Positions 29,466-35,400 of a DNA stretch of 64,000 nucleotides are shown one piece after another. The notes under the pieces are model-generated. The model made no database searches, was not told the origin of the DNA, and worked only from the letters and a program-made list of their open reading frames with translations. Every line of letters begins with the position of its first letter. Position 1 is the first letter of the stretch. Position numbers and translations under genes: made by a program. The DNA is from Glandiceps talaboti (Eukaryota; Hemichordata; Enteropneusta; Spengelidae): contig NC_135569.1 of assembly GCF_964340395.1 (NCBI RefSeq), forward strand, positions 13,983,519-14,047,518, given 5' to 3'.

Positions 29466-32400
29466 CTGTACATGGACAAAGAAGAAAGGAGATCACAGGA
29501 TGTTAATACAGATTGTACATCAGCGGAAGAAAAAAATGACTACTTGAGCAAAGAGGAACAGAATATGGTTTGATAAATACTGGCAAAAGATTTGAAAATG
29601 TATCATTGACACAGAAATAAGATTTGGCACATTTTGAAACATGTTCAATATTTATTCAACATCCTTTGTCTTGTGGACATCTTCGGCCCTAAAAGATCAC
29701 ACAATATTGCGCTATTTCATATATGGAAACACAATCATTATCGGGTCTAAAATGACCACTGACCATTTTCTACACACTCACCCTAATACAGTAGTAACAG
29801 AATACATGTGGACATCCAATCTCATGGGGTGTAGTTGGCCATTCATTCTCTACACTCACCCTAATACAGTACTAACAGAATACATGTGGACATCCAATCT
29901 CATGGGGTGTAGTTGGCCATACATTCTCTACACTCACCCTAATACAGTAGTAACAGAATACATGTGGACATCCAATCTCATGGGGTGTAGTTGGCCATAC
30001 ATTCTCTACACTCACCCTAATACAGTAGTAACAGAATACATGTGGACATCCAATCTCATGGGGTGTAGTTGGCCATTCATTCTCTACACTCACCCTAATA
30101 CAGTAGTAACAGAATACATGTGGACATCCAATCTCATGGGGTGTAGTTGGCCATACATTCTCTACACTCACCCTAATACAGTAGTAACAGAACACATGTG
30201 GACATCCAATCTCATGGGGTGTAGTTGGCCATTCATTCTCTACACTCACCCTAATACAGTAGTAACAGAATACATGTGGACATCCAATCTCATGGGGTGT
30301 AGTTGGCCATTCATTCTCTACACTCACCCTAACACAGTAGTAACAGAATACATGTGGACATCCAATCTCATGGGGTGTAGTTGGCCATACATTCTCCATA
30401 CTCACCCTAATATAGTAGTAACAGAATACATGTGGACATCCAATCTCATGGGGTGTAGTTGGCTATTCATTCTCTACACTCACCCTAACACAGTAGTAAC
30501 AGAATACATGTGGACATCCAATCTCATGGGGTGTAGTTGGCCATACATTCTCCATACTCACCCTAATACAGTAGTAACAGAATACATGTTGACATCCAAT
30601 CTCATGGGGTGTAGTTGGCCATACATTCTCCATACTCACCCTAATATAGTAGTAACAGAATACATGTGGACATCCAATCTCATGGGGTGTAGTTGGCCAT
30701 TCATTCTCTACACTCACCCTAACACAGTAGTAACAGAATACATGTGGACATCCAATCTCATGGGGTGTAGTTGGCCATACATTCTCTACACTTACCCTAA
30801 TACAGTAGTAACAGAACACATGTGGACATCCAATCTCATGGGGTGTAGTTGGCCATACATTCTCTACACTCACCCTAATACAGTAGTAACAGAACACATG
30901 TGGACATCCAATCTCATGGGGTGTAGTTGGCCATTCATTCTCTACACTCACCCTAACACAGTAGTAACAGAATACATGTGGACATCCAATCTCATGGGGT
31001 GTAGTTGGCCATACATTCTCTACACTCACCCTAATACAGTAGTAACAGAATACATGTGGACATCCAATCTCATGGGGTGTAGATGGCCATACATTCTCTA
31101 CACTCACTCTAATACAGTAGTAATAAAATACATGTGGACATCCAATCTCATGGGGTGTGGTTGGCCATACATTCTCTACACTCACCCTAATACAGTAGTA
31201 ACAGAATACACATGGACATCCAATCTCATGGGGTGTAGTTAGCCATACATTCTCTACACTTATCCTAATACAGTAGTAACAGAATACACATGGACATCCA
31301 ATCTCATGGGGTGTAGTTAGCCATACATTCTCTACACTCACCCTAATACAGTAGTAACAGAATACATGTGTACATCCAATCTCATGGGGTGTAGTTGGCC
31401 ATACATTCTCTACACTCACCCTAATACAGTAGTAACAGAATACATGTGGACATCCAATCTCATGGGGTGTAGTTAGCCATACATTCTCTACAGTCACCCT
31501 AATACAGTAGTAACAGAATGCATGTGGACATCCAATCTCATGGGGTGTAGTTGGCCATACATTCTCTACACTCACCCTAACACAGTAGTAACAGAATACA
31601 TGTGGACATCCAATCTCATGGGGTGTAGTTGGCCATACATTCTCTACACACTCACCCTAACACAGTAGTAACAGAATACATGTGGACATCCAATCTCATT
31701 AGGTGTAGTTGGCCATACATTCTCTACACTCACCCTAATACAGTAGTAACAGAATACATGTGGACATCCAATCTCATGGGGTGTAGTTAGCCATACATTC
31801 TCTACACTTACCCTAACACAGTAGTAACAGAATACATGTGGACATCCAATCTCATGGGGTGTAGTTGGCCATACATTCTCTACACTCACCCTAATACAGT
31901 AGTAACAGCATACATGTGGACATCCAATCTCATGGGGTGTAGTTAGCCATACATTCTCTACACTCACCCTAATACAGTAGTAACAGAATACATGTGGACA
32001 TCCAATCTCATGGGGTGTAGTTGGCCATTCATTCTCTACACCTACCCTAATACAGTAGTACAGAATACATGTGGACATCCAATCTCATGGGGTGCAGTTG
32101 GCCATTTTCTACACACTCACCCTAATACAGTAGTAACAGAATACATGTGGACATCCAATCTCATGGGGTGTAGTTGGCCATTCATTTTCTACACACTTAC
32201 CCTAATACAGTAGTAACAGAATACATGTGGACATCCAATCTCGTGGGGTGTAGTTGGCCATTCATTCTCTACACTCACCCTAATACAGTAGTAACAGAAT
32301 ACATGTGAACATCCAATCTCATGGGTGTAGTTGGCCATTCATTCTCTACACTCACTCTAATACAGTAGTAACAGAATGCATGTGGACATCCAATCTCATG

Positions 32401-35400
32401 GGGTGTAGTTGGCCATACATTCTCTACACTCACCCTAACACAGTAGTAACAGAATACATGTGGACATCCAATCTCATTAGGTGTAGTTGGCCATACATTC
32501 TCTACACACTCACCCTAACACAGTAGTAACAGAATACATGTGGACATCCAATCTCATTAGGTGTAGTTGGCCATACATTCTCTACACTCACCCTAATACA
32601 GTAGTAACAGAATACATGTGGACATCCAATCTCATGGGGTGTAGTTAGCCATACATTCTCTACACTTACCCTAACACAGTAGTAGCAGAATACATGTGGA
32701 CATCCAATCTCATGGGGTGTAGTTGGCCATACATTCTCTACACTCACCCTAATACAGTAGTAACAGAATACATGTGGACATCCAATCTCATGGGGTGTAG
32801 TTGGCCATACATTCTCTACACTCACCCTAATACAGTAGTAACAGAATACATGTGGACATCCAATCTCATGGGGTGTAGTTAGCCATACATTCTCTACACT
32901 CACCCTAATACAGTAGTAACAGAATACATGTGGACATCCAATCTCATGGGGTGTAGTTGGCCATACATTCTCTACACTCACCCTAATACAGTAGTAACAG
33001 AATACATGTGGACATCCAATCTCATGGGGTGTAGTTAGCCATACATTCTCTACACTCACCCTAATACAGTAGTAACAGAATACATGTGGACATCCAATCT
33101 CATGGGGTGTAGTTGGCCATTCATTCTCTACACCTACCCTAATACAGTAGTACAGAATACATGTGGACATCCAATCTCATGGGGTGTAGTTGGCCATTCA
33201 TTTTCTACACACTTACCCTAATACAGTAGTAACAGAATACATGTAGACATCCAATCTCGTGGGGTGTAGTTGGCCATTCATTCTCTACACTCACCCTAAT
33301 ACAGTAGTAACAGAATACATGTGAACATCCAATCTCATGGGGTGTAGTTGGCCATTCATTCTCTACACCTACCCTAATACAGTAGTACAGAATACATGTG
33401 GACATCCAATCTCATGGGTGCAGTTGGCCATTTTCTACACACTCACCCTAATACAGTAGTAACAGAATACATGTGGACATCCAATCTCATGGGGTGTAGT
33501 TGGCCATTCATTTTCTACACACTTACCCTAATACAGTAGTAACAGAATACACGTGGACATCCAATCTCATTGGGTGTAGTTGGCCATTCATTTTCTATAC
33601 ACTTACCCTAATACAGTAGTAACAGAATACATGTGGACATCCAATCTCATGGGGCGTAGTTGGCCATTCATTCTCTACACACTTACCCTAATACAGTAGT
33701 AACAGAATACACGTGGACATCCAATCTCATTGGGTGTAGTTGGCCATTCATTTTCTATACACTTACCCTAATACAGTAGTAACAGAATACATGTGGACAT
33801 CCAATCTCATGGGGTGTAGTTGGCCATTCATTTTCTACACACTTACCCTAATACAGTAGTAACAGAATACACGTGGACATCCAATCTCATTGGGTGTAGT
33901 TGGCCATTCATTTTCTATACACTTACCCTAATACAGTAGTAACAGAATACATGTGGACATCCAATCTCATGGGGTGTAGTTGGCCATTCATTTTCTACAC
34001 ACTTACCCTAATACAGTAGTAACAGAATACACGTGGACATCCAATCTCATTGGGTGTAGTTGGCCATTCATTTTCTATACACTTACCCTAATACAGTAGT
34101 AACAGAATACATGTGGACATCCAATCTCATGGGGTGTAGTTGGCCATTCATTTTCTACACACTTACCCTAATACAGTAGTAACAGAATACACGTGGACAT
34201 CCAATCTCATTGGGTGTAGTTGGCCATTCATTTTCTATACACTTACCCTAATACAGTAGTAACAGAATACATGTGGACATCCAATCTCATGGGGTGTAGT
34301 TGGCCATACATTCTCTACACACTTACCCTAATACAGTAGTAACAGAATACATGTGGACATCCAATCTCATGGGGTGTAGTTGGCCATTCTCCACATATAA
34401 CACATTCTTCGTAGTGCTTATCTGCCCTTTCTGTGACCTGACTGTCATCTGCTCTCAGCGACCTCGAAAACTGTCTTGTGAAAAAGTTCTTGAGTTTTTG
34501 GAAGTTGATAAGTGGCAGCACAAAGAAAAGGAACTCGGCAAATCCATGCCACAGTAGTTCTCTGATCATATATTCAAAACTGACCTGGTACGTAAATAGA
34601 CAGACGAGAAGGTGGTTAGGGTTTAACTTAAATTACATAACTTAGAACTAACTGGGAGTACCTTTACCAGGATCCTGGAAACAAACAGACGAGGGCCCTC
34701 GACATCAGTATGCGATTATAGTAGTGTTGCGCTGGATCAGAGTTTAGATAAAACGTAGGAAAAAAAGGCGCGAGCGACTCTCGACAGTCTACATCAGGGG
34801 GTGTAGTTGGATGCCAATTGAAGTCAGATGGAAATTATGAAGAATTGATGAATTTCAGTGATAAACTATTGTTTTCACACATGTTTGTGGTGTTGTTATC
34901 TTACCATCAGTGATGTGGTTTCATCTAATATGGCTATAGAAGGCAATCTATTTGTTTGTGATATTCATTAGCTTTAAGACATACAAGGTCAGTTGGCCGG
35001 GTCATTCGAAAATAGAAATAGGGGAATGAAAGAAACTAAGTTATAACTACTTGATAGCTTTGTCGTACATAGACACTTGTTTTTGAGTCAAATTGACAAT
35101 GTGTCAATTTAAAATCAAACATATTTGGTTGAAGACTGTCTGATACATTGTCATTCCATCCACCCTTATCGGCTAGTGAGGGCGCCCTAACACTACAAAT
35201 CTTACAGGCTATTCTGGTCAGTGTACTTTTCAGGAATAGTGGTATAGAATTAGAAGTACACAGAGCGAAATGTGGTTACCCTCTCTCTGCATTACCTATA
35301 GAGGGTGTACTACCAAATCAGTTACATCCACTGGCAAAAGGAGTTGAAATAATTAAAACTGAAATTGATAAAACGTAATCTGCCACATGAGTAATATTTC

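Follow-up and report, generated by a model that had tools for sequence, protein, structure and literature searches.

The question raised by this locus is how the end of a conserved RING exon came to be present 59 times in a row, counting the exon itself, within its own gene, and whether the copies have any role there. The window, the whole stretch of 64,000 nucleotides that was analysed, comes from the acorn worm Glandiceps talaboti (Spengelidae) and corresponds to positions 13983519-14047518 of a 19.39-Mb contig (19,391,087 bases). The gene lies on the minus strand and has seven exons, all in phase 0 and separated by GT/AG introns (Table 1), and its predicted protein of 300 codons, with the C-terminus QPVKCKLR, is that of the public protein P0001 ('peroxisome biogenesis factor 2-like [Glandiceps talaboti]'), which it matches at 100% over the query in a protein search. 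The view taken in the first-pass annotation, that this is a seemingly intact PEX2 gene with exon 6 as the source of an array lying in intron 6, is thus borne out.

Table 1. Coordinates of the PEX2 gene and of the array in intron 6, as positions of the 64-kb window. The slash marks the exon-intron junction.
Feature	Position	Strand	Remark
PEX2 exon 1, coding part	60224..60277	-	agrees with P0001
PEX2 exon 2	58131..58208	-	
PEX2 exon 3	57522..57584	-	
PEX2 exon 4	37122..37319	-	
PEX2 exon 5	35855..36007	-	
PEX2 exon 6	34327..34584	-	RING ligands 1-6; array derived from its final ~60 nt
Proposed upstream edge of the initial duplication, AATGG within exon 6	34384..34388	-	partner AATGG begins 14 nt past the last array donor
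True exon 6 donor, AGG/GTAAGT	34321..34329	-	only one of 59 giving full-length PEX2
PEX2 intron 6	29466..34326	-	4,861 bp, of which 316 bp lie outside the array
Tandem array, 58 units	29782..34326	-	4,545 bp; TRF and unit parse
PEX2 exon 7 and stop codon	29367..29465	-	RING ligands 7-8

Several lines of evidence identify the protein as PEX2. It matches the Pex2_Pex12 family (PF04757, E=2e-36) together with RING models in Pfam, it has a C-terminal C3HC4 RING with eight ligands, its best match in the PDB is Peroxin-2, and among the matches listed (120 of 476) the next after P0001 are those of Ptychodera flava (81%) and Saccoglossus kowalevskii (71%). No second Glandiceps entry stands beside P0001 among these 120. 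All eight zinc ligands fall in invariant columns of an alignment of 13 proteins taken from the same 120 matches. Exon 6 holds six of them (C243, C246, C258, H260, C263 and C266) and exon 7 the remaining two (C279 and C282), so that the six of eight previously given for the copied segment hold for the exon but not for the repeat, each unit of which carries four.

An intact PEX2 elsewhere in the genome had been proposed as a check on this locus, and none was found when the Glandiceps assembly was searched in six frames, exon by exon, with the Pex2_Pex12 profile. There were three matches. By their coordinates two correspond to exons 5 and 4 of the gene described here, and the third, an intronless open reading frame of 305 aa on C7, was rejected as a second PEX2 because it is PEX10-like, being only 22% identical to PEX2 and closest to Peroxin-10 in the PDB. 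PEX12 should exist in this genome but was not shown by the same search, and a PEX2 paralog split among exons might therefore also escape it.

The array is a minisatellite in the usual sense, with tandem units within roughly 10-100 bp and internal variants among them. At 29774-34387 TRF reports 58.9 copies of a 78-bp period, with 94% matches, and a unit-by-unit parse, with cuts at the exon-end motif, gives 59 donor-bearing exon ends, namely the true end of exon 6 plus its 58 copies, in good agreement with the earlier count of about 59. The copies had been described as ending at the splice donor; each in fact consists of about 60 nt of the end of exon 6, the donor, and a further 14-18 nt of intron. 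Forty units are 78 bp long, 14 are 80 bp, and there is one each of 74, 75, 77 and 79 bp; 38 distinct sequences occur among the 58, and 15 units end in exactly the same 60 nt as exon 6. Intron 6 is largely but not wholly filled by the array, which leaves 316 of its 4,861 bp. A BLAST search with the array unit (E <= 1e-3) found no copy in the 64-kb window outside the array and exon 6, all 59 matches lying within them, and the idea that the array spread as a mobile repeat was set aside for want of further copies in the window.

No constraint at the protein level is detectable in the copied coding sequence. It had been stated that every unit encodes C-x-H-x2-C-x2-C; within their last 48 nt this motif is kept in an open frame by 44 of the 58 units, and motif or frame is lost in the other 14. 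Moreover, 17 of the 58 unit lengths are not divisible by three. Among the distinct substitutions in the exon part 16 of 24 are nonsynonymous, as compared with 17.9 expected (P=0.24), and four change a zinc ligand, with 3.0 expected. Nor does the exon-derived part (24 changes in 60 positions) differ in its rate of change from the intron-derived part (9 in 20) when possible changes are compared by Fisher's test (P=0.83). These tests cover 54 of the 58 units, four that differ in length or contain indels within the exon part being left out, and for the Fisher comparison the length types were aligned by hand and distinct changes counted. An apparent excess of conservation in the exon-derived part across all 58 units (2.0% of cells departing from the consensus, vs 11.4% in the intron-derived part) was rejected because it arose from gaps misplaced between the 78-bp and 80-bp types. 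The units thus lack both the continuous open frame and the protein-level constraint by which coding tandem repeats are recognised, and the coding meaning that had been implied for them is not upheld.

The origin of the array appears to be readable at its downstream end, where the intron following the last array donor reads GTGAGTGTGTAGAAAATGGTC. Units 12 and 29 reproduce the first 19 nt of this intron exactly and then pass into exon sequence at AATGGCC, and the 19-nt match itself ends in AATGG. Five or more bases are shared at 0.66% of the 8,690 breakpoint pairs tested. The seam is consistent with an initial 76-bp duplication between two copies of AATGG, and we suggest that a slip or unequal exchange at this common sequence would have duplicated the end of exon 6 together with its donor and the 14 nt beyond it. 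The first copy would have had a donor, apparently with no usable acceptor, and would therefore have become intron and been harmless. To derive the 80-bp and 78-bp forms from a 76-bp form would require a 4-bp copy of AATG and a 2-bp loss of GT. The order could also be the reverse, with 80-bp units coming first and the 76-bp form arising by later loss, in which case the AATGG argument is weaker. The units encode R at the position matching R268 of exon 6, as the Glandiceps exon does, which suggests that they were derived from, or homogenised with, the Glandiceps exon.

Subsequent growth has left its own pattern. Units 2, 4, 6, 8 and 10 are identical to one another, as are units 3, 5, 7, 11 and 28, and a 160-bp step of two units thus adjoins exon 6. 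Identical pairs at a lag of 11 units (22/33, 23/34 and 32/43) and at a lag of 14 (16/30) suggest copying of blocks, which is less certain than the two-unit steps since runs of four to five similar units are also present at lags of 8, 12, 26 and 35-39. This is the pattern of ordinary minisatellite turnover, which would have proceeded by small changes of length, by the 160-bp two-unit steps and probably by larger block copies.

The location of the array raises the question of which donor is used, since each repeat has a donor-like site at its exon end and 55 of the 59 sites pair with the 5′ end of U1 at -9.4 kcal/mol or lower, close to the -9.7 kcal/mol of the true donor; it is thus not obvious that donor 1 should win. 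When every donor is joined by script to exon 7, an intact C-terminus results from donor 1 only. Donors 2-6 and 57-59 (8 of the 58 later donors) all end at a common TAG after CYYCIRVSV, giving 271 aa, and because this TAG is in unit 1, which forms part of the message from any later donor, the remaining later donors must end there too. For donors 2-6 and 57-59 the TAG lies at least 68 nt upstream of the last junction, and by the usual 50-55 nt rule for NMD the messages from later donors are predicted to be truncated and of the NMD type. Judging from the sequence, we consider it probable (about 80%) that the array is a neutral intronic minisatellite, begun by chance on the end of an exon and spliced out with intron 6 from the first donor. 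PEX2 would then be spliced from donor 1 to exon 7, the sole joining for the full protein, the use of any later donor would give a truncated message of the NMD type, and the array would have no function of its own. P0001 may be a homology-based prediction, and its 300 aa match the donor 1 joining but are no proof of donor choice.

A regulatory role would follow if donors 2-59 competed with the first, so that a part of the PEX2 messages stopped at the TAG and went to NMD, with PEX2 output lowered or tuned. The near equality of 55 of the 59 donors in U1 pairing is in keeping with this, as are the position of the stop in unit 1, upstream of the last junction, and the example of human IFI6, two downstream repeat units of which are used as donors according to the passage on that gene in PMC4526556. 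However, the key donor bases are not specially kept: GT is present in 58 of the 59 donors, with the -1G lost in two and the +5G in one, and these losses stand against a background of 24 distinct substitutions in the 60 exon positions and 9 in the 20 intron positions. We thus regard such competition as unlikely. A more elaborate form, in which 59 strong U1 sites opposed to one productive joining would act as a splicing rheostat, with the length of the array (probably specific to the individual) setting the loss to NMD and the capacity for peroxisome import, seems more doubtful still.

The other alternatives concern the array itself and are less probable yet. It could be falsely expanded, as assemblies can mis-size long near-identical arrays, and yet it contains 38 distinct units among 58 in a nested structure and is part of a 19.39-Mb contig, in a window without a single N; such an artefact is quite improbable, and we take the array to be real, although its copy number may be off. 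Removal in unit-sized recursive steps, with the ...TTAG/G of each unit serving as acceptor beside its own donor, is prompted by the AG that adjoins the donor in each unit, and PMC2891723 indeed discusses the partial duplication of an exon, with an AG/GY motif, as a route to new introns. But an AG followed directly by GTRAGT, the form of a recursive splice site, is found nowhere across the array and the true donor, where 56 sites read AGGGTR instead, so that a G would be left behind at each step and the frame shifted; the spacing for a branch point also seems too short by eye, and we would give this model very little credence. Least probable of all is translation of the units in frame to give a PEX2 bearing numerous half RING fingers, for which it can be said that 40 of the 58 units are 78 bp long and that runs of them are open in one frame. 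Over the array and its flanks the three frames contain 130, 68 and 91 stops, 17 of the 58 units are not a multiple of three, coding constraint is absent, and an in-frame TAG at intron positions +10 to +12 already refutes such translation for the allele in this assembly.

As a probably neutral minisatellite on an exon end, the array has relatives among donor repeats such as those of IFI6, repeats at exon-intron boundaries and intronised exon duplicates, and thus belongs to a known kind of system. The human IFI6 repeat has a unit of about 12 bp in about 26 copies, unlike that of PEX2, in which 58 units, mostly of 78 bp, carry about 60 nt of conserved coding sequence and the later donors are predicted to be unproductive. 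A minisatellite in IFI6 was reportedly described by Turri, Cuin and Porter in 1995. According to the passage in PMC4526556, which cites Turri et al., two downstream repeat units of IFI6 (6-16, G1P3) act as splice donors to give three mRNA species; the two cases are alike in that tandem repeats multiply the donor of an exon, with the extra donors downstream in the same intron. The 1995 paper is listed by title among the references of PMC4526556 and PMC2572611. For human segmental duplications, De Grassi and Ciccarelli 2009 (PMC2812944) report tandem repeats that span exon-intron boundaries and alter exon or intron length; they name replication slippage or unequal crossover as possible means of expansion, and the repeats average four 30-bp units in recent paralogs, with up to 39 copies of 57/69-bp units in morpheus exon 8. 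The PEX2 array is likewise a minisatellite over an exon-intron boundary, but has 58 units mostly of 78 bp over the donor, and no second gene copy was found. Lehmann et al. 2010 (PMC2891723) discuss a partial tandem duplication of an exon in which one copy is intronised. In PEX2 a tandem exon copy with a splice motif similarly becomes intron; in contrast to the new intron within an exon treated there, an old intron is lengthened and none is new. Minisatellites are also present in the first intron of an earthworm metallothionein gene, where the passages on them do not state that they are exon ends, and a genome paper found for Glandiceps talaboti concerns amylases, by its title. The array had been put forward as a state not described for PEX2, which agrees with an open-literature search for PEX2 and minisatellite that gave no such description, as judged from its listing; the wider novelty is limited by the donor-multiplying minisatellite of IFI6 and the boundary repeats of human duplicated genes.

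Minisatellites are common on this contig. Twenty 10-kb stretches (200 kb) sampled from this one contig contain 18 arrays with a period of at least 20 and at least four copies under the same TRF scoring, 24,276 bp in total, two of which, of at least 5.8 kb, reach the end of their stretch; by the same measure the 64-kb window has four, including that in PEX2. The longest sampled are a 20-bp unit over nearly all of one stretch (L020, 1-9998) and a 38-bp unit over 5.8 kb of another (L019, 4167-10000). If this density holds genome-wide, and with a guessed number of about 120,000 donors, then as a rough estimate tens to hundreds of arrays would be expected to cover a donor by chance. What is special here is the length of the array, its conserved source and its readable seam.

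The locus offers a natural experiment on donor choice, with 59 near-equal donors in series of which one is productive, and a case of minisatellite birth at a splice site, with the apparent first seam still legible, in a gene on which peroxisome biogenesis depends. The array, if neutral, also provides a measure of how much duplication of an exon end is tolerated by an intron.

Several other features of the gene and window were observed. Intron 3 of PEX2 (37320-57521) is 20.2 kb long and accounts for about 65% of the distance between the first and the last coding base. In intron 4 there is a long inverted repeat at 36103-36445, with 99-nt arms that are 96% complementary and 59-nt arms that are 90% complementary, which looks like a foldback or MITE-type element. 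Among 12 aligned relatives the position of R268, at the end of exon 6 (34327-34329), is occupied by Q in seven, K in four and H in one, and the start of exon 7 (29454-29465) encodes H270, where the relatives have N, and E272, where they mostly have L. Several inverted repeats of 62-156 nt, nested within one another, occur at 26433-27917 and appear to be copies of a single palindromic element. Finally, the plus strand has at 62553-62984 an open reading frame of 143 codons that includes a very acidic stretch and may be the first exon of an adjacent gene oriented away from PEX2.
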